From positions 1-34,870 of the forward strand of contig NZ_LNDC01000192.1 in the NCBI RefSeq assembly GCF_001870905.1: a stretch of 34,870 nt of DNA, read 5' to 3'. This document shows, one piece after another, positions 3,340-34,787 of the stretch; within the stretch, counting starts at the first letter, position 1; every line of letters begins with the position of its first letter. The notes below the pieces were generated by a model that was not told the DNA's origin, made no database searches, and saw only the letters and a list, made by a program, of their open reading frames with translations. This DNA is from Geitlerinema sp. PCC 9228 (GTDB lineage: Bacteria > Cyanobacteriota > Cyanobacteriia > Cyanobacteriales > PCC-9228). A program made the translations under genes and the position numbers.

Positions 3340-3482
3340 CTACCATTTCTTAAAAATTTGCAATAAATAATCGGGGTATTTTTGTAGGGGCGCAACGCGT
3401 GAGCGCCCCTAATTGCGTGTTGCGTCCTACAAGGGCAATTAGAAGATTTCAGAAAATCATTGTTTTTTTTTAGAAATACTAG
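3340..3482. repeat. diverged copy A of the 123-bp palindromic repeat family
   Basis: The same order of blocks as the other copies is visible: a left end resembling ATACCATTTC, then TTTTTGTAGGGGCGCAACGC, the arm GAGCGCCCCT, and a right end near AGAAATACT. It is about 143 bp, because about 18 extra bases follow the core (around 3411-3428). The right terminal repeat is degraded. A short open frame across it gives the 'GAHALRPY' peptide often mis-annotated in cyanobacteria; I do not regard that as a gene. It lies in the 512-bp convergent gap 3090-3601, which otherwise shows only the terminator and AT-rich sequence. Confidence 0.65.
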
Positions 3483-6887: not shown

Positions 6888-6960
6888 GCCGGGATAGCTC
6901 AGTCGGTAGAGCAGGGGACTGAAAATCCCCGTGTCCCCGGTTCAATTCCGGGTCCTGGCA
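6888..6960 (+). tRNA. trnF: tRNA-Phe (GAA)
   Basis: A complete 73-nt cloverleaf. The acceptor stem GCCGGGA pairs with TCCTGGC (one G-T pair), the discriminator base is A and no CCA is encoded. The D arm is GCTC-AGTCGGTAGA-GAGC-like. The anticodon stem GGGGA/TCCCC encloses the loop CTGAAAA, giving anticodon GAA at 6921-6923. The T arm is CCCCGG-TTCAATT-CCGGG-like. A -10-like GATAAT lies at 6855-6860 and a strong terminator follows. Confidence 0.97.
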
Positions 6961-7079: not shown

Positions 7080-7121
7080 TTTCGAGGCTAAGATGTCTGA
7101 AATTTGTTGGTCAGGGGCGTT

Positions 7122-7244
7122 ATACCATTTCTGAAAAACAATGATTTTTTGAGATGTTCCGATTTCCCTGGTAGGGGCGCTCACGCGTTGCGCCCCTACA
7201 AAAATCCCCCAATTATTCCTTGCAGATTTTTAAGGAAATGGTAT
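7122..7244. repeat. copy B of the 123-bp palindromic (MITE-like) repeat
   Basis: Exactly 123 bp from ATACCATTTC to GAAATGGTAT, which are perfect 10-bp terminal inverted repeats. The centre is the palindrome GTAGGGGCGC...GCGCCCCTAC around ACGCG. TTA stands on both sides of the TACC...GGTA unit. No coding capacity. It matches copies C and D base for base over long stretches and has the same length. Confidence 0.85.
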
Positions 7245-7330
7245 TAGAAGCGCGTTTGCTGGCAAACCTATCTAGATATCATCATCTGGATGCGAGAGAG
7301 TGGGAATTTTCACGACTACAACCACGCCGT

Positions 7331-8980
7331 CTATCCTCTATCCAAAGGAGCGGGGGTTGATTCCAATTTGGGAACAATTTGCCAGCCAAATTCTTGCTCG
7401 AACACCTCTTTCTTGTAGTTTAAACTCCACACTTCCAACTCGCAGTCATCATCGGGTTGGGTGGGTTCGAGGTGCAAGTACAAAATTTGGTTTTTCTCGT
7501 CAAACGCGCAGGTGACTTCGCGAATAGCCCCCAACTGACGACGGTCGAGGGCAATAGCCAACCGCAGCAAAGCCGATAGTTGGGCGACCAAACGGCGGTA
7601 TTTTTTGGAGGTGAGATTGCGGAAATTATCGTGTTTCTTTTTGGGAGGACTTTTGCGGTGGTAACGGGCTAAATTGGCAATAATTTCCAGTTCGGTTTCG
7701 GTATAGCCAAATAGTTCGCTGTGGCGAATTAAATAGTAAGAATGTTTGTGGTGGGAGTTATGGCTGATGTAGAGGCCGCAATTGTGTAAAACCGCTGCTG
7801 CCCACAGCAGTTCCCGTTCCTCGGCTTGCCACTGATGCAGGATGCCTTGGGTGCTGTCAAACAAACGCAGGGCAAACTGGGCCATTCGTTCGCTAGCGTT
7901 GAGATTGACATGGTATTTTTTGGCAATTTTATAGACGCTGCGGGTACGTACCGAACTGTGGTAGCGTAGCTGGTCGGAAATCAACCCGTGGGTGAGCATC
8001 CAATCGACAATCAGCCCTTCCCGCAAGGCGCGATCGCAGATGGTGAGGGTTTCTACCCCCAACATAGCCATGGCTTCTTTTAAAATTAAGGCACCGGCTA
8101 GAATAATTTCCGCCCGGCGTTCCGACATGCCTGGAAGTTCTGCACGCTGTTTGACGGGAAGCTTGCGCAAGCGATCGACGATCTCTTGAATTCCCTTAAA
8201 CCCGATGGAATAGCCATTGAGGGGATTGGGGGCACTGCCGTAGACTTGATGGGCATGTAACGCTGCCACAGCTTCGATGGTTCCTGAGGTCCCCACCATC
8301 CGCAGTTCTTCTTGGGGGTTGAGGTGGGTGCGAATTTCTTCGACGGGTCGTTCCAACATGCCGCGGATGTACGCCCGCAGGTAGTGAAATTCTTCGTTGC
8401 TGATGGGGTCGGTGTGGACGAATTCTGAGGTCAAACGAACTGCCCCTACTTTGGTACTGTTGAGAACCCGCGGTTCGCCACCATCGCCCAAAACCAATTC
8501 GGTGGAGCCGCCGCCAATGTCAATGACCACGTGGGATTTTTGGTCGAACTCAATGGCTGAGAGAACCCCCAAATAAATGCGGCGGGCTTCTTCTTGACCG
8601 GAAATGAGATTGACTTTCAGATCCAGCTGTTTGTCGATTTGGCGGAGAAAATCCCGACCGTTAGGGGCTTCGCGAACCGCACTGGTGGCAACGGCGACGA
8701 TGCGGTCGGCATGGTAACTTTTGGCGATTTCTTGAAAGCGTCCCAAACAAGCGATCGCTCGTTCTACGACTTCTGGCCGCAATTTTCCCGTTTCCCAGCA
8801 GCGATCGCCCAGGCGTACAGTTTCTTTTTCCCGCGCTACAATCGAAAAGCTTGGTAAAGTAGGTTCGATTTGTGCCAAAACCATGTGAATGGAATTGGTC
8901 CCCAAATCAATTGCCGCGAGCGTGCGGTTTTCTTGCCAAACTGGCGTAGGCGCTTGCACGAGCCCAATTGTTTCTACCAT
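7331..8980 (-). CDS. ppx: Ppx/GppA-family exopolyphosphatase / pppGpp phosphatase
   Basis: 549 aa. The N-terminal sugar-kinase/Hsp70-like fold has both phosphate loops: LAAIDLGTNSIHMVLAQI near residue 20 and VVIDIGGGSTELVLGDG near residue 150. An Ala/Gly-rich adenosine-type motif GTSGTIEAVAAL follows near 230. The C-terminal third is a helical HD-like domain (LLWAAAVLHNCGLYISHNSHH...LARYHRK), as in long bacterial Ppx proteins. The family cleaves terminal phosphates from polyphosphate and/or pppGpp, and which activity dominates cannot be read from sequence. Length is typical of cyanobacterial Ppx. It starts at ATG 8980, and 173 bp separate it from the divergent prenyltransferase gene. Confidence 0.88.
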   Translation of the reverse strand: MVETIGLVQAPTPVWQENRTLAAIDLGTNSIHMVLAQIEPTLPSFSIVAREKETVRLGDRCWETGKLRPEVVERAIACLGRFQEIAKSYHADRIVAVATSAVREAPNGRDFLRQIDKQLDLKVNLISGQEEARRIYLGVLSAIEFDQKSHVVIDIGGGSTELVLGDGGEPRVLNSTKVGAVRLTSEFVHTDPISNEEFHYLRAYIRGMLERPVEEIRTHLNPQEELRMVGTSGTIEAVAALHAHQVYGSAPNPLNGYSIGFKGIQEIVDRLRKLPVKQRAELPGMSERRAEIILAGALILKEAMAMLGVETLTICDRALREGLIVDWMLTHGLISDQLRYHSSVRTRSVYKIAKKYHVNLNASERMAQFALRLFDSTQGILHQWQAEERELLWAAAVLHNCGLYISHNSHHKHSYYLIRHSELFGYTETELEIIANLARYHRKSPPKKKHDNFRNLTSKKYRRLVAQLSALLRLAIALDRRQLGAIREVTCAFDEKNQILYLHLEPTQPDDDCELEVWSLNYKKEVFEQEFGWQIVPKLESTPAPLDRG

Positions 8981-10055: not shown

Positions 10056-10079
10056 GTAGGGGCCACTGGCTGCCCCTAC
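10056..10079. repeat. short palindrome GTAGGGGC...GCCCCTAC
   Basis: A perfect 8-bp stem with an 8-nt loop in the 89-bp gap between the prenyltransferase and der. The arms equal the central arms of the 123-bp repeat, so it is probably a minimal relative. It could also serve as a terminator or mRNA stabiliser, although no T-run follows. Confidence 0.55.
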
Positions 10080-10127
10080 TTGCAATCATCCATATAGATA
10101 CTTGCGCTTAGAGAAACTTGTATTGCT

Positions 10128-14598: not shown

Positions 14599-15470
14599 TT
14601 CTCTCTTTTAAGACTGAACTAGAGCTTAATAATCAACAGAAAATTCTTTGTGCCCAACATGCAGAAATGGCTCCTCATGCTGATAAATGAGGGTTCTCAT
14701 TAACGAACTTCATTCTTGACTATAACCAAAAATCCTAATAATAAACTCAAATTCCCTAGCGCAATTGAGTTTTATAAACTTTTCGTTGCTTGGTGTAAAC
14801 CCAAAAATCTTTAGTATTATGAAGTTAGTAAATGCGCCCCTCAATTATGGTATGATGCTATTTCTGAAAAACAACGATTGTATGGAATTGGCCAATTGCC
14901 CTGGTAGGGGCGCTCACGCGTTGCGCTCCTAAAAAAATGCCTCTATTATCTCTTGCAGATTATCAAGAAAATGGTATAAGAACTGGAAGGAAACACAGAT
15001 GAAGATACCTAGATTTCATCGAAAAATAGGCAACCATAAATTAACAACTTTTCTTGCTAAGAACCACAGTGAGATGGTTATCAAAGACTTAAACGTCAAG
15101 GGGATATTGGCTAATTAAAGTTAGCTAAAGCAATCTCCGATATGGGCTTCTACAAGTTCCGTCGTTAACTGGAGTGCAAATGCCCGTTATATAGTTTTCA
15201 ATTCATCATTGTTGACCGATGGTTTCCTGCTTCTACAACTTGTTCTACCTGTGGAACAGTAAAAGAAAAACTCTCCTTGTAAAAAAGAACTTTTCACTGC
15301 GAAAGTTGTGGCTTTCGTTGCGAGCGAGATGTGAACGCAAGTATTAATTGGGCTTTTGCGGGTAGTTCGCTCGTGTAAGCCCGTGGACTAGGTTGCGCCG
15401 TCGCATCTAGGAAAAGCCCCTGGTGGGAAAGAAACAGGAAATTAACGTCAAGTTTAACCGATTTGGTTAA
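14595..15470 (+). pseudogene. tnpB: decayed TnpB (IS607-type RNA-guided nuclease), interrupted by a repeat
   Basis: The start ATG overlaps the tnpA stop (ATGA), the usual IS607 arrangement. The N-terminus reads MILSFKTELELNNQQKILCA and leads to YYEVSKCAPQ near 14845. There a 123-bp repeat interrupts the gene. Beyond it most of the central region, including the first RuvC motif, is missing. The C-terminal part is recognisable with in-frame stops: FLAKNHSEMVIKDLNV (RuvC-II; the usual Glu is Lys), DMGFYKFRR, DRWFPASTTCSTCG, CESCGFRCERDVNAS (zinc finger and the RuvC-III Asp) and a final NVKFNRFG. TnpB is the RNA-guided endonuclease ancestral to Cas12. This copy cannot be functional. Confidence 0.85.
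14855..14977. repeat. copy C of the 123-bp palindromic repeat, inside dead tnpB
   Basis: 123 bp, colinear with copies B and D (CTGAAAAACAACGATTG, then CCCTGGTAGGGGCGCTCACG, CGTTGCGC, TCTTGCAGATTATCAAG, ending AATGGTAT). The left end is partly decayed (ATGCTATTTC). It separates two recognisable stretches of tnpB, so it arrived after the IS607 element. Confidence 0.8.
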
Positions 15471-26504: not shown

Positions 26505-26743
26505 CACTCTCACGAATAGAATTGGTGAGATTCTCGCTTCATTGGGTGTGCCTAGATGGGTTCGCGGATTTGCGAACAGAGCTAGTCCCTCTCCGGCGAC
26601 AGGGACCCTCGGCGAGCGTTTTTCCGCCCCATTGTGGACGTACTTTGAATGCAATTCAAGCATATTTTTGACGGCGGCACCGGCTGCACGGGTCGCTCTT
26701 TTCCCCTTCAAAATCGCAGTTGGCTGTTTCAATCGTAGCTCCC
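26505..26743. other. gap between ATPase and STAND genes with hairpins
   Basis: 239 bp. GTTCGC/GCGAAC (26560-26565, 26572-26577) and GTCCCT/AGGGAC (26585-26590, 26601-26606) are two perfect 6-bp hairpins, followed by TTTTT at 26619-26623. The unit looks like an interspersed repeat that could also act as a partial terminator. No gene was seen. Confidence 0.45.
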
Positions 26744-29700
26744 ATGGCAAAACTAGACACCGTAGACGATGCGCGCGCTTACAACCAGCGTTCCCTCAAA
26801 GCCTTGCTGCGAGCGATCGCCCTATCCGAGGGCACCTTTTCCCTCATTTTGGTGCGCTGTAATTACCACCAACTGCGCCAAAAAATCGTCCAACAGCTGC
26901 GAGACCGCTACGCCGACACCAACCCGTGCTTTCGCGAAATCTACCTCGATCCCAACATCCGCACCCTGTACACCACCCTGCGATCGCAACTGCAAGGGGA
27001 ACAACTGGGGGGAAAAGGCACACCAGCCTTAATGGTCTTTGGTCTGGAGTCCGTACGTGCCCTCGATTACGTCCTCAGCTCCACCAACCAAGTGCGCGAA
27101 GAATTTCGCAAAAACTTTCCCTGCCCCCTCGTGCTGTGGGTGACCTCCGACGTATTGACCAAGATGATTCGCCTGGCACCAGACTTTCGCAGTTGGGCAG
27201 CCAGTTCCATAAAATTCGAACGCTCTACCGAGGAATTGTGGAGCGAACTCGTCCAAGTGGCCAATGCTGTTTTCCAAGCAGGGTTAGCCTTTGGCAGCCA
27301 AACAGCTGCCAGTGCCGCCTCCCCCGACACCAAAACCAGCACCAGCGATTCGGCGAACAACGACCTGGTGGACCTGGCCGTTGGCTCCTCCTACCGCGCT
27401 CAGGTAGAAGCAGCCGTACGGGACTTGCGCGATCGCGGTGTTTCCCTCAACTCCCCCGAAGGACTGCGGCTACAAGCCAGCATTCAACTCGTCTTAGGCA
27501 GGGATGACTACGCCAACGATCGCCCAGACGCCGCCCTCGAACACTACAACCAGAGCCTGCAGTTGTGGTCCGCAGCCAGGTCACGCCACAGCCAAGACAG
27601 CGATCCATCCCCAACCGGCAGCAGTCACAACCCAGCATCCCATACTGACACCATGGTTGAAGCCAGCCAGCAGTCCCCGAAAAATCCGTCAGTCCCCCTT
27701 ACCGTAAACTGGTTGGAACGCCAAGGCGTTTTGCTATATCACATCGCCCTTTGCTACCGCCGGCAAGCCGACCTCAACCCTCCCCAGCAAATTGAATACC
27801 TGCAAGCTGCTAGAACCTACTTTCAAGACTGCATTGAAGCATTTCGTAACTGCGATCGCCAAGAACTGGTCGCTCAATTTACTTGCAGCTTGGGAGAAGT
27901 TCTGCGGCATTTAGAAGCGTGGAAAGAATTAGAAACCCTCGCCCAGAATGCCCTGCAAATGGACGCCGTTTGCCAAAATTCCCTACTGCGTGCCTCATGT
28001 TATGGATTTCTATCCGAAGTAGGACTTGCAGAAGGTCGGTGGATTCGCGCGTATCACCTAGCAGAAGAAGCCCTTTCTTTAGCCAACAGCGCCTGGTCGC
28101 CCTCATCAGAGACACCAAAAGTCCCGCCGCAACATAAAGGATTGTACCTGTGGTTGTTAGGGCGATCGCTGCAAGCCATGAACCGCCACCAAGAAGCGCG
28201 CAACTACTTGCAACAGGCACGGGACACCATCGCCCCCCAACAGGATCCCAAACTGTACATTCGGATCTTAGAAACCCTGCGTTCCATTTACTTCCAACAA
28301 GGAGGATATTTAGAAGCATTTCGCATCGAACAACAGCAACACCAAATCGAACACCAATTTGGCTTTCGCGCCTTTATCGGTGCCGTGCAGTTGCAGCCTC
28401 AATTGCACACCCTGCATCCAGTAAGCAGCGTCCCCTTTTTCTCGCCACCGCCATCGGCCAACCACCCATCCCTCGATACCGCTGGGGATAGGTCCGGTTG
28501 GCGTTCGCGAAGGGTCTGGTACGGAGAATGGTCCGTTCGCGAAGGGTCTGGTACGGAGAATGGACCGGTACCAAAGGCACCATCGCCAGAACACCTAGCC
28601 GACCCCAGCCACACCACCTGGGCCCCGGAAATCGACGCAGCCGGGCGAGGAACCGACGTACGCAATCTGCTCAGCCGCTTAAACCGCAACGACTGCAAGC
28701 TCACCATCATTCACGGTTCTTCCGGCGTCGGCAAAAGTTCCATGCTCAACGCCGGTTTGGTCCCCGCCTTAAGATACCGGCAAATGGGCGATCGCATCGC
28801 CCTGCCCCTCATCGTACAGGTATACACCGACTGGATGGGAAACATCACCAAACAGCTTGCCGAAGCCCTTGCCATCGAGCCAGTCACCTCAACACCACCC
28901 AAAACCAACTTCGAAACCTTTTGCCATCTCCTGCAGCACGCCCAAAACCGCAATCTACTTATTGTTATCTTATTCGACCAATTTGAAGAGTTTTTCTTCG
29001 TTTGCCAGAAAAGCACCGAACAAAACCTATTTTGCCAATTCCTCAATCGCTGCCTAAATAGCCCCTTCGTCAAAGTCGTCATCTCCCTACGGGAAGACTA
29101 CCTGCACTATTTGCTTTCCTGCGAACAAACCGTTTCCCTAGACGCCATCGGCAACAACATCCTAGACAAAAACGTACGCTATCCCCTGCGAGACCTCGCC
29201 CCTGACAAAGCCAAAAGCACCATCGAAAAACTCACAGCCAACTCGCAGTTCTACATGCAAACCGCCCTCATCGAAACCTTAGTCCAAGACCTCGCCCAAG
29301 AAAGTGGTGCCGTGCGTCCCGTCGAACTGCAAGTCGTGGGAGAACAGCTGCAGGAAGAAGGCATTCATACCCTAGACAAATACCTGCAACTAGGCGACAG
29401 CGCCAAAGCCAGAAAACAAAAACTCGTCTTGCGATCGCTTTGCGTTGCCATCGAAGACTGCGGACCCGCCAACGAAGAAATCACCTGGAAAGTCTTATTC
29501 TCCCTCATCGACGACAAAGGCAGACGCCCCCTCAAAACCAAACAAGAAATCGCCACCTCCATCAACGGACACCCCAACCACACCCACCAAACCCTAGACC
29601 TCATCCTAGAAATCCTCGTAGGTGCCGGTTTAGTCTTTTTACACCTAGAAGAACCCACCAACCGCTACCAACTCGTCCACGACTATCTAGTCGAACCCAT

Positions 29701-32290
29701 CCAACAAAAATACAACGAAACCTTCCAAAAACTCAAACAACAACTCGCCGCCTCCCAAGCCGCCGAAAAATCCAGCCAGCAGCAACTAGAAAAACGCAAC
29801 CGAGAACTCAACCGCCTCCTCAAAATCACCCTCGGCTTAATCCTGTTGTTGCTAGGTGCCACCCTCTCCACCGCCACCTTTTGGCGCAACGCCGAAAAAC
29901 AAAAACAAGCTCTCCAACAGCAGCGAGAACAAGTAGAACTGCAAAAACAGCGCGCCGAACAGCAGAGCAAAATCGCCGAAATCAACGAAATGAAAGCAGA
30001 AATTGCCGCCACCTCCGCTAGCGCCGAAGCCCTATTCCTCGATAACAAACCCTTCGACGCCCTCATGGAAGCCCTGCGCGCCGTTCGGCGGCTGCAAACC
30101 TTTCGCCACACCATCGCCACCGGCGGGTCCATCAGCCAGAACAGCGCCACCACGCGCCGGGTTTCCACCGCCGACATCGAACTGCAAGTAGCAGCCGCCC
30201 TACAACAAGCCATCTATCGTTCTGAAAAAGAAAGCAACCGCCTAGAAGGGCACCGCAACGCCGTATGGGACGTACGCTTTAGCCATGACGGGCGTTTCAT
30301 CGCCTCCGCCAGCAACGACAAAACCATCCGCATCTGGCAACCCAACGGTCGGCTGGTGCAAGTTCTCGACCGCCCCACAGCCAGCCTATCCAGCGTAGAC
30401 TTCAGCATAGACGGTCGGTGGATTGGTGCCGGCGACACTGATGGCAACCTCTACCTGTGGCAGCGAACCAATGGCCAATACCAGCTCGTACAAACCCTGA
30501 AAGCTGGCGAAAAAGTATACAGCGTGCGTTTCAGCCCCAAAGGTAACCTAGTAGCTGCAGCCGGAGACAGTACCCAAGTCAAACTGTGGCAGCGCCAGCC
30601 CAACGGCAGCTATAGCCAACAAGCCACCCAAACCTTATCCGGACATGCCGAAGTCGTGCGCTCGGTTCAGTTTCGTCAAGATGGAGATTGGCTGGTCACC
30701 GCCGGCGTACAGGGAAAAATTCGTTTGTGGCGGCAAGGGCGCGGGGGGCGCTACCAACTACGAAGAACCATTGCAGCGCACGATCGGAAAATCAACTTCC
30801 TCGATTTTGCTCCCAACGGTCAAATTTTTGCCTCCGCCTCTGACGATAAGACTATTAAACTGTGGAACTTGCAAGGGGAAAGATTGCGAACTTTTTCCGG
30901 GCACCAGAAATGGGTGTACGCCCTGAGTTTTAGTCCTGACAGCCAATCCCTGGTCTCGGCCAGCGGAGATGGCAAAGCGATTTTGTGGGATGTAGCTTCT
31001 GGAGAGAAAAAACGGGAATTTGAAGTGCATACTGATGGGGTAACCAGCGTGGACTTTAGTCCCAATGGCAACTTAATCGCCACCGGCAGTTGGGACAAAA
31101 CCGTACGTTTGTGGAAACTCGAATCGACCTCTCTGCCCCGGTTGCGCGCTCACGAACAGCGGGTATACGGTGTCGGTTTCTCTCCTGATGGACAAACCAT
31201 TGCCACCGGCAGCAGCGATCGCAGTGTGAAAATTTGGAACCGGCAAGGGGAACTCCTCCAAAGCTGGCAGGCACATGCAAGTGGCTTGTACGACGTATCG
31301 TTTGCTCCGAACGGCGACATGCTGGCATCAGCCAGTCACGACTGTACCGTGAAATTATGGGACCCCTCTGGAACCGCGATCGCGACCCTAACAGACCCCA
31401 GCCTAGCTGACAAAAAAGACCTCCCCGGCAACTGCGCCCCCAACCCCAGCCATGCCGATCGAACCTACCAAGCTGCCTTCGATCCCCAGGGGAAATTGGT
31501 TGCCACCGCCAGCCGCGACGGCACCGTCAAAATTTGGTCCCTTTCCGGCCAGCTACTGCACACCCTCGCCGCCCACCAAGGCAGAGTCAACAGCGTCGCC
31601 TTTTCCGCCAACGGGCAACTTTTGGCCTCAGCAGGGGACGACCAGCAAATTCTCCTGTGGCGTCGCAACGGCGAATTAGTGGGGACGGTTACCACCAGCA
31701 AAGACCCCTTTGGGCATCAGTCTTACATTACTGATATTGCCTTTAGTCCCGATGGCAAGAGGTTGGTGTCGGCGGGGTGGGATAATACAGTGAAACTATG
31801 GCGTTTGCCTACCAACAGTAGAAGCGCAACGCGAAGCGTCTCTACTGGGGCCACGCCCCCAAAAACCGTACGCGATCGCTCTTTATTGGTGGATACCTTG
31901 TACCGGGGCTACAACGACAGCGTCAATAGCGTTGCCTTTCGTCCGGATGGCAAAGCGATCGCCTCTGCCAATTGGGATGGTACCATCAAGCTATGGAGCC
32001 GCGATGGCAGTCTGTTAAAAGCCTTGCACGGCCACGAAAGCGGCGTTTTGGATGTCAGCTTTAGTCCCGACGGCCAAACCTTGGTATCGACGAGTGCTGA
32101 TAGTACGGCGATTTTATGGAATTTGGATTTGCAAGATTTGTTACAGAAAAGTTGCCGCTGGGTACGGGATTATTTAGCGACCAATCCCAACCTTTCCCAA
32201 AGCGATCGCGCCTTGTGTCAGGACAAGCACGGGAGCTTTGCCCCTACAGATTTTTTCGCCAGCCAAGGGAACCAGCAAAATGATGGTTAA
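26744..32290 (+). CDS. giant TPR-STAND NTPase-WD40 protein (NLR/Apaf-1-like sensor)
   Basis: 1848 aa in modules. (1) Residues ~1-190 are NTPase-like with no Walker A (FSLILVRCNYHQLRQKIVQQ, ALMVFGLESVRALDYVL, LVLWVTSDVLTKMIRLAPDF), a degenerate domain I have seen in other cyanobacterial repeat proteins. (2) ~215-560 are TPR-like helices (GVLLYHIALCYRRQADLN, GLYLWLLGRSLQAMNRHQEA). (3) ~587-607 is a linker built from a 32-bp tandem repeat. (4) ~635-1000 is an nSTAND-type NTPase, with Walker A GSSGVGKSS (658-666) and Walker B LLIVILFDQFEEFFF (D745), then a winged-helix-like part. (5) ~1028-1048 is one membrane helix, followed by a coiled coil (to ~1095). (6) ~1167-1810 holds 14 WD40 repeats, enough for two seven-bladed propellers. 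STAND proteins are ligand-triggered switches. ATG 26744 was preferred over TTG 26720. Confidence 0.88.
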   Translation: MAKLDTVDDARAYNQRSLKALLRAIALSEGTFSLILVRCNYHQLRQKIVQQLRDRYADTNPCFREIYLDPNIRTLYTTLRSQLQGEQLGGKGTPALMVFGLESVRALDYVLSSTNQVREEFRKNFPCPLVLWVTSDVLTKMIRLAPDFRSWAASSIKFERSTEELWSELVQVANAVFQAGLAFGSQTAASAASPDTKTSTSDSANNDLVDLAVGSSYRAQVEAAVRDLRDRGVSLNSPEGLRLQASIQLVLGRDDYANDRPDAALEHYNQSLQLWSAARSRHSQDSDPSPTGSSHNPASHTDTMVEASQQSPKNPSVPLTVNWLERQGVLLYHIALCYRRQADLNPPQQIEYLQAARTYFQDCIEAFRNCDRQELVAQFTCSLGEVLRHLEAWKELETLAQNALQMDAVCQNSLLRASCYGFLSEVGLAEGRWIRAYHLAEEALSLANSAWSPSSETPKVPPQHKGLYLWLLGRSLQAMNRHQEARNYLQQARDTIAPQQDPKLYIRILETLRSIYFQQGGYLEAFRIEQQQHQIEHQFGFRAFIGAVQLQPQLHTLHPVSSVPFFSPPPSANHPSLDTAGDRSGWRSRRVWYGEWSVREGSGTENGPVPKAPSPEHLADPSHTTWAPEIDAAGRGTDVRNLLSRLNRNDCKLTIIHGSSGVGKSSMLNAGLVPALRYRQMGDRIALPLIVQVYTDWMGNITKQLAEALAIEPVTSTPPKTNFETFCHLLQHAQNRNLLIVILFDQFEEFFFVCQKSTEQNLFCQFLNRCLNSPFVKVVISLREDYLHYLLSCEQTVSLDAIGNNILDKNVRYPLRDLAPDKAKSTIEKLTANSQFYMQTALIETLVQDLAQESGAVRPVELQVVGEQLQEEGIHTLDKYLQLGDSAKARKQKLVLRSLCVAIEDCGPANEEITWKVLFSLIDDKGRRPLKTKQEIATSINGHPNHTHQTLDLILEILVGAGLVFLHLEEPTNRYQLVHDYLVEPIQQKYNETFQKLKQQLAASQAAEKSSQQQLEKRNRELNRLLKITLGLILLLLGATLSTATFWRNAEKQKQALQQQREQVELQKQRAEQQSKIAEINEMKAEIAATSASAEALFLDNKPFDALMEALRAVRRLQTFRHTIATGGSISQNSATTRRVSTADIELQVAAALQQAIYRSEKESNRLEGHRNAVWDVRFSHDGRFIASASNDKTIRIWQPNGRLVQVLDRPTASLSSVDFSIDGRWIGAGDTDGNLYLWQRTNGQYQLVQTLKAGEKVYSVRFSPKGNLVAAAGDSTQVKLWQRQPNGSYSQQATQTLSGHAEVVRSVQFRQDGDWLVTAGVQGKIRLWRQGRGGRYQLRRTIAAHDRKINFLDFAPNGQIFASASDDKTIKLWNLQGERLRTFSGHQKWVYALSFSPDSQSLVSASGDGKAILWDVASGEKKREFEVHTDGVTSVDFSPNGNLIATGSWDKTVRLWKLESTSLPRLRAHEQRVYGVGFSPDGQTIATGSSDRSVKIWNRQGELLQSWQAHASGLYDVSFAPNGDMLASASHDCTVKLWDPSGTAIATLTDPSLADKKDLPGNCAPNPSHADRTYQAAFDPQGKLVATASRDGTVKIWSLSGQLLHTLAAHQGRVNSVAFSANGQLLASAGDDQQILLWRRNGELVGTVTTSKDPFGHQSYITDIAFSPDGKRLVSAGWDNTVKLWRLPTNSRSATRSVSTGATPPKTVRDRSLLVDTLYRGYNDSVNSVAFRPDGKAIASANWDGTIKLWSRDGSLLKALHGHESGVLDVSFSPDGQTLVSTSADSTAILWNLDLQDLLQKSCRWVRDYLATNPNLSQSDRALCQDKHGSFAPTDFFASQGNQQNDG
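28502..28565 (+). repeat. two tandem 32-bp units inside the STAND gene
   Basis: CGTTCGCGAAGGGTCTGGTA plus CGGAGAATGGTC occurs at 28502-28533 and again, with one change, at 28534-28565. Because 32 is not a multiple of three, the two copies are read in different frames (one gives RSRRVWYGEW, the other VREGSGTENG). The gene stays open through both. Confidence 0.9.
31816..31847 (+). repeat. palindromic repeat inside a WD40 loop of the STAND gene
   Basis: CAGTAGAAGCGCAACGCGAA followed by GCGTCTCTACTG is a 32-bp imperfect palindrome of the type scattered between cyanobacterial genes, related in centre to the 123-bp family. It is translated as part of NSRSATRSVSTG, an extended loop after the twelfth WD40 repeat, and does not break the frame. 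Confidence 0.8.
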
Positions 32291-34562: not shown

Positions 34563-34609
34563 CCTAGCAGCTAGAAAAAGCCACCGGTAACCTTGGCGAG
34601 GTGAACCTT

Positions 34610-34732
34610 ATACCATTTCCTTAATAATCTGCAAGAGATAATAGAGGCATTTTTGTAGGGGCGCAACGCGTGAGCGCCCCTACCAGGGAAATTGGAAAAT
34701 TCCAGAAAATTATGTTTTTTCAGAAATGGTAT
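34610..34732. repeat. copy D of the 123-bp palindromic repeat (inverted relative to B and C)
   Basis: 123 bp from ATACCATTTC to GAAATGGTAT, both ends intact. Read on the minus strand it matches copies B and C in order and length, including CCCTGGTAGGGGCGCTCACG and TCTCTTGCAGATTATTAAGG. TTA stands on both sides of the TACC...GGTA unit, as in copy B. A peptide frame across it is not a gene. Confidence 0.85.
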
Positions 34733-34787
34733 TAGTGGTACAAATGGCGTTTTGGGGGATTCTAAACCCCCATAGCCCCTTTTTAGA

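Follow-up and report, generated by a model that had tools for sequence, protein, structure and literature searches.

The window analysed here is contig C192 in its full length (34,870 nt), part of a draft genome of 4.8 Mb on 223 contigs (C-numbers denote contigs of this genome). It carries four copies of a short repeat, termed A to D. All four are located between the larger open reading frames (ORFs) of the ORF list, and an 88-aa frame across copy A is the only ORF of at least 80 aa that overlaps any of them. Copy B has a tRNA gene (6888-6960) on one side and an ORF (7331-8980) on the other. The copies and their palindromic centres are the following:

Copy A, 3340-3482, minus strand: diverged; the family model matches 3341-3478; longer mainly by an extra, decayed centre unit.
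Copy B, 7120-7246, plus strand: 121-bp element TACCATTTC...GAAATGGTA at 7123-7243, with the TTA duplication at 7120-7122 and 7244-7246.
Centre of B, 7171-7199, no strand: palindrome GTAGGGGCGC-TCACGCGTT-GCGCCCCTAC, one unit of type a; the main hairpin in the fold.
Copy C, 14855-14977, plus strand: 123 bp; older, with diverged ends and unequal flanks, TGA and TAA (element orientation).
Centre of C, 14904-14932, no strand: 2 mismatches to the centre of B.
Copy D, 34608-34734, minus strand: 121-bp element at 34611-34731, with TTA on each side on the plus strand (TAA in element orientation).
Centre of D, 34655-34683, no strand: one unit of type a.

A sequence-only reading of the window had described B (7122-7244), C (14855-14977) and D (34610-34732) as exactly 123 bp each, with perfect ends and an identical palindromic centre, and A as a diverged, longer relative. 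The three lengths were borne out, as were the TTA on both sides of B and of D and the status of A, whose added length lies mainly in a second, decayed repeat unit of the centre. The ends are perfect in B and D but not in C, in which the left end is changed (ATGCTATTTC) and the right end carries one change (AAAATGGTAT). Similarly, the centre is identical in B and D over 29 bp but not in C; the 29-bp centre of A has 1 mismatch. With up to 3 mismatches allowed, the centre pattern is found at 4 sites in the window versus 0 in 100 shuffles, and the repeat is present far beyond chance. The predicted RNA fold is strong for B (z -4.2) and D (z -4.6) and not for C (z -0.9), so that a role as RNA is not argued here. 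At gathering thresholds, Rfam returned nothing in the window except a tRNA. A query with the ORF at 7331-8980 yielded 27 loci, none with more than 64% identity, and therefore provided no empty site for the copies of the window. Two further repeats were seen in the window. A GTAGGGGCC...GCCCCTAC palindrome (10056-10080) lies between two ORFs, outside any copy of the family, and two tandem 32-bp copies (28502-28565) that are 97% alike lie within the 1856-aa ORF at 26720-32290; their length is not a multiple of 3.

To determine the size of the family, the genome was searched in several ways. BLAST with copy B gave at least 43 matches (40 candidates scored). A sequence-only family model, built from 26 copies, gave 166 matches, of which the 150 listed correspond to at least 137 copies after merging of halves split by an enlarged centre. 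Some of these 137 copies are partial, and the number is a minimum, as scoring covered 150 of the 3344 candidates. The mean density is about one copy per 35 kb, so the four copies noted earlier in the 35-kb window, which were confirmed, are above the mean. A genome-wide search for the ends had been proposed as a check. The pattern TACCATTTC...GAAATGGTA at a spacing of 85-115 retrieved 25 elements, all with perfect 9-bp terminal inverted repeats, against 0 in the reversed control, and the one-ended pattern TNATACCATTTC retrieved 119 sites against 0 in the control. The supposed rigid length did not survive this wider view. Both ends were recognised in 97 of the 137 merged copies, and these range from 86 to 159 bp, with modes at 120-121 bp (n=40) and 139-141 bp (n=15). 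The size varies because the number of units in the centre varies. On contig C155 (800-4500; L070), near locus position 590, a family copy was seen to pass into a GGAGTGGGA minisatellite from its centre on.

The flanks of the 97 both-ended copies reveal the target duplication. TNA is found on the left of 75 copies, on the right of 72 and on both sides of 62. In 48 of these 62 copies, N is the same on both sides and in 14 it is not; when the right flanks were re-dealt, the mean number of equal pairs was 23.9 and the maximum 39 (20,000 shuffles). Since N matches beyond the shuffles, the element is delimited as TACC...GGTA, 121 bp in its commonest form, with a 3-bp TNA duplication. A family copy at C101:50194-50316 is nested within the terminus of a second one. 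On the contig strand, TGA is doubled there, while the family consensus has a single TGA at this site, which represents the empty site. Elements with other TACC-type ends are inserted in the centres of family copies on C136 and C145, again with TGA doubled and a single one in the consensus. Other TNA-flanked repeats with TACCAAATC ends occur in the genome at C103:77261-77359, C98:1103-1225, C136:30446-30568 and C137:63112-63249; one TACCAAATC-ended repeat is located in the centre of the family copy at C136, and a diverged one in that at C145. The matching triplets and the nested copy on C101 support the proposal of a non-autonomous mobile element that is bounded by terminal inverted repeats and duplicates 3 bp of its target.

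An autonomous transposase with the same ends was found in other genomes, as IS630-family elements, but the own genome shows remnants only. The autonomous type, known here from other cyanobacteria, is about 1.14 kb long and has the same kind of ends. In genome G023, a DNA search found an end with 22 exact bases of the left end of copy B (query 1-22) and an IS630-like gene directly inside. The DDE part of this gene lies in a different reading frame, and beyond the gene follows another TACC-type end. Its N-terminal region matches 168 of the 388 genomes of the order (E 1e-20). At locus L235, the catalytic ORF scores 122.4 bits with the NCBIfam IS630 model NF033545 (cut-off 100) and 58.4 with Pfam DDE_3 (cut-off 28.6) and thus qualifies as an IS630-type transposase; the helix-turn-helix (HTH) ORF of the same locus reaches 73.8 with NF033545, which is under the cut-off. 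On C99 of the own genome, a TACCATTTCC end led to a broken IS630-like gene that starts about 70 bp inside that end and is interrupted by a copy of the family. An intact 141-aa ORF at C98:29029-29454 (L247:1530-1955, plus strand) is the HTH half of an IS630 transposase, with no catalytic part after it, and may represent a remnant or else a DNA-binding protein that has been retained. A search of the own genome for DDE_3 at E 0.001 was negative. Because both IS630 remnants seen are broken or truncated and DDE_3 is without a match, the partner in this organism is one that we infer; it is likely an IS630-family insertion sequence. Two other candidates were rejected. An orphan end on C92 (L087) leads into other sequence, as read from its ORFs, and the DDE_Tnp_1 genes on C20 and C124, whose position had suggested partners, have nearby ends that belong to decayed or truncated copies of the family.

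The target duplication was also examined in the autonomous relatives. In four genomes, TNA is equal on both sides in 27 of 27 end-paired copies (G341, 9/9 listed; G323, 9/9 listed; G375, 6/6; G273, 3/3), where for L282 the end pair 1144 bp apart was preferred to an alternative one at 1285 bp, whose triplets are unequal. Two further regions of G375 are without proper paired ends, G055 L286 and G023 L275 are without paired ends, and the end-paired region L285 of G055 has unequal N. Among the 30 IS630 homologue loci listed, 11 have both TNA-TACC ends, with N equal in 6 and unequal in 5; these 11 include L226, with ends 1.5 kb apart, and L230, which is the same copy as L273. TNA flanks are absent from the TACC-ended relatives of two genomes (G196, 4 copies; G147, 2 copies), and TNA is therefore not universal in the group. 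In the phylogenetic tree, which includes just 2 TA rows, the TNA elements do not form one clade; 5 changes are counted, at least 2 of them forced by well-supported branches. The tree labels were taken from end pairs at the loci, with five TNA rows having unequal N, and not from the automatic end-finder, which picked wrong ends at several loci (e.g. L225, L283 and L284).

Empty sites were sought for nine IS insertions of G375 and G273, whose flanks were joined with one TNA and compared with 13 genomes of that genus. For four of the nine, a match spanning the junction without a gap there was found among 30 loci, and in three cases it extends 30 bases or more to either side of the junction. L273, inserted at TTA, aligns with G320 and G392 at 92% identity and without any gap. 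L284, inserted at TCA, aligns with another locus of G273 (85%) and with G110 (83%); TAA replaces TCA in these, and two small gaps lie well away from the junction. L267, again at TTA, aligns with G388 (78%) and G393 (81%) without gaps, and the TAA insertion L270 matches G034 (86%), also gapless, with just 17 bases left of the junction and a changed triplet. The other five insertions had no junction-spanning match among the 30 loci.

These data bear on two other readings of the ends. Elements of the IS5/IS1031 type likewise duplicate TNA, so the 3-bp duplication of the family would suit a MITE of that type. The elements found with these ends and a transposase gene, however, carry an IS630 one, most of them having been retrieved by an IS630 query and the G023 end and the C99 remnant by the ends. 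In addition, DDE_Tnp_4 was not detected in the own genome (E 0.001), the DDE_Tnp_1 genes on C20 and C124 are not inside paired ends, and those on C105 and C177 are without such ends within the stretch examined. An IS5-type origin is thus regarded as extremely improbable. The textbook target duplication of IS630 is 2-bp TA, and the type found here, with a 3-bp TNA instead, is therefore a variant. A canonical IS630 MITE could still be read into the family if CCATTTC...GAAATGG lay between duplicated TA and the outer TNA were a target preference only. The ends do read TACC...GGTA, the TACC-ended relatives in G196 share no outer triplet, and ISY100 duplicates TA according to the available part of its description (PMC2170065). 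Yet the outer triplets form matching direct repeats, including TCA/TCA and TGA/TGA, and the nested insertions on C101, C136 and C145 fit one TNA only. A TA duplication would moreover predict five more bases than the empty sites of the tested IS elements show, and this reading is considered very unlikely. With the TNA duplication retained, the family comprises short elements without coding capacity that have terminal inverted repeats, many dispersed copies, a target duplication and an autonomous relative with the same ends. It is a genuine family of miniature inverted-repeat transposable elements (MITEs).

The centre of the element consists of GTAGGGGCGC followed by units of type a (TCACGCGTTGCGCCCCTAC, 19 bp) or b (TTCGCGAAGCGCCCCTAC, 18 bp), mostly one to three in tandem. 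Among 61 cleanly parsed copies, the types are a (35), b (12), ba (9), aa (4) and aaa (1), with the order ab absent; the other 36 of the 97 both-ended copies (17 with other centres, 19 unparsed) were left out of the test. In the unparsed copy C45:25127, a turned a-like unit precedes b. A precisely empty centre was found in none of the 97 both-ended copies. In the 61 parsed copies, linkage between the left arm and the right is evident (r 0.507; 0/2000 permutations as high), although weak among the 46 young copies (r 0.185; 72/2000), and between arms and centre there is none (r -0.06; 1599/2000). Disregarding indels, eight pairs of copies are without arm substitutions, and in seven of them the centre differs, as in copy D (centre a) and C19:18069-18190 (centre b). 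The eight pairs form three clusters and call for at least four changes of the centre. By this comparison of sequences, the centre is judged to turn over faster than the arms. It would gain, lose and exchange units, most simply by slippage between GCGCCCCTAC direct repeats; slippage suffices because a or b can arise when ba contracts, and aa when a is duplicated. Gene conversion could likewise have caused centre changes.

The centre might instead be a separate mobile palindrome of the REP or SDR kind that inserts into MITEs and moves between them. Genome G014, which has no match to the whole MITE, has numerous occurrences of a very similar palindrome (36 matches), and 11 of the 12 G014 loci examined show it without paired TACC ends. 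At L058 of G014 (about locus position 1460-1570), it lies mid-way in a different TNA-flanked element with TACCAAATC/GAATTGGTA ends. The independence of centre type and arms fits such a palindrome, as do GTAG repeats within long palindromes in Anabaena variabilis, according to the part of PMC3733652 available. In the own genome, however, 77 of 83 palindromes counted lie in listed family copies (a sampling biased to copies), and of the 6 outside, one (C15) is in a further family copy. The lack of precisely empty centres speaks against insertion into MITEs, and direct-repeat slippage accounts for the changes among a, b, ba, aa and aaa. The unpaired tag of GTAG-type REPs is also missing, as GTAG is base-paired with CTAC on the opposite arm. 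None of the 8 Y1_Tnp matches represents a RAYT gene flanked by the repeat; near these genes, the palindrome occurs within family copies only, apart from one unpaired half-match at L157. A mobile palindrome is accordingly viewed as unlikely, though not negligible. Somewhat less probable still is a combination of two mobile layers, in which an IS630 variant cutting TNA with a 3-bp stagger would move the MITE and an independently spreading palindrome would have been inserted, copied and expanded in it. This combination is made slightly likelier by L058, which holds such a palindrome inside a different TNA-flanked element.

Elements bounded by TNA with the same 9-bp ends and MITE spacing are found in 37 of the 388 genomes (own included) and 17 of the 149 genera of the order, against 0 among the listed matches of the reversed control. 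Among the matches listed, their internal sequence is unlike that of the window's family. In a search of 40 genomes (own included) with copy B, the whole element was found in none of the 39 others, which are related at the order level only, and four gave short partial matches. In G304, three MITE matches on contig C30 (18922, 20690 and 22458) are alike over the bases printed and spaced by exactly 1768 bp, which suggests a tandem duplication carrying the MITE.

Taken as a whole, the family is very probably a MITE with a TNA duplication, ends served by an IS630-type transposase and a centre of shuffling units. An IS630-type transposase would recognise the ends (TACCATTTC plus subterminal bases), cut the element out and paste it into a TNA target, of which 3 bp would be duplicated. 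The parent would be an IS630 element of about 1.14 kb with the same kind of ends. Mobilisation in trans, the cut-and-paste mode and the attribution of centre changes to slippage are steps that we infer. As only broken remnants were found, the MITEs may now be immobile or may be served by a copy missing from the assembly.

Among relatives of IS630, Zator elements, with a TWA target duplication, are a precedent for a duplication other than TA. In the available parts of the sources, the target of the IS630/Tc1/mariner group is TA (PMC2170065, PMC8533490), and exceptions serving as precedents are Sailor (TATA) and Fot or Fot-like elements (TAA, TAAA) (PMC8533490, PMC7386202). Sailor, Fot and Zator are separate superfamilies or families, whereas here N of TNA is free and the elements are cyanobacterial IS630. 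Small dispersed repeats of Nostoc were reportedly treated by Elhai in 2008. ISY100 of Synechocystis shares an HTH and DDE transposase of the IS630 family and short terminal inverted repeats with the elements described here but, in the part of its description available, differs by its 2-bp TA, which here lies inside the element next to a 3-bp TNA (PMC2170065). Nezha is likewise a cyanobacterial MITE and is set beside the family by description only, as cited in parts of PMC3733652 and PMC10969869. BrickBuilt of Porphyromonas gingivalis also contains a minisatellite inside a MITE, with units of 23 bp according to the available text (PMC4596501), in contrast to the 18/19-bp palindromic units, mostly one, found here. 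In the excerpted account of GTAG-15 REP dimers of Anabaena variabilis (PMC3733652), a short palindrome likewise lies mid-way in a longer cyanobacterial inverted repeat, with other ends and an unpaired GTAG that is paired in the present family. Judging by these partial sources, precedents thus exist for a minisatellite in a MITE (PMC4596501) and for a short repeat in cyanobacterial palindromes (PMC3733652). A TNA duplication in bacterial IS630 was not found in the literature searched, mostly at the level of listings and with ISfinder outside its scope. The available parts of PMC8533490 and PMC7386202 do not name TNA, and those of PMC2246112, PMC3542288, PMC4853749 and PMC10969869 contain no TNA statement for IS630.

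A cyanobacterial IS630 branch with clean TNA beside relatives without it offers a natural comparison from which to ask which feature of the transposase determines the stagger. The ends can be used for finding MITEs elsewhere in the order, and the fast-changing centre could mark recent copies.
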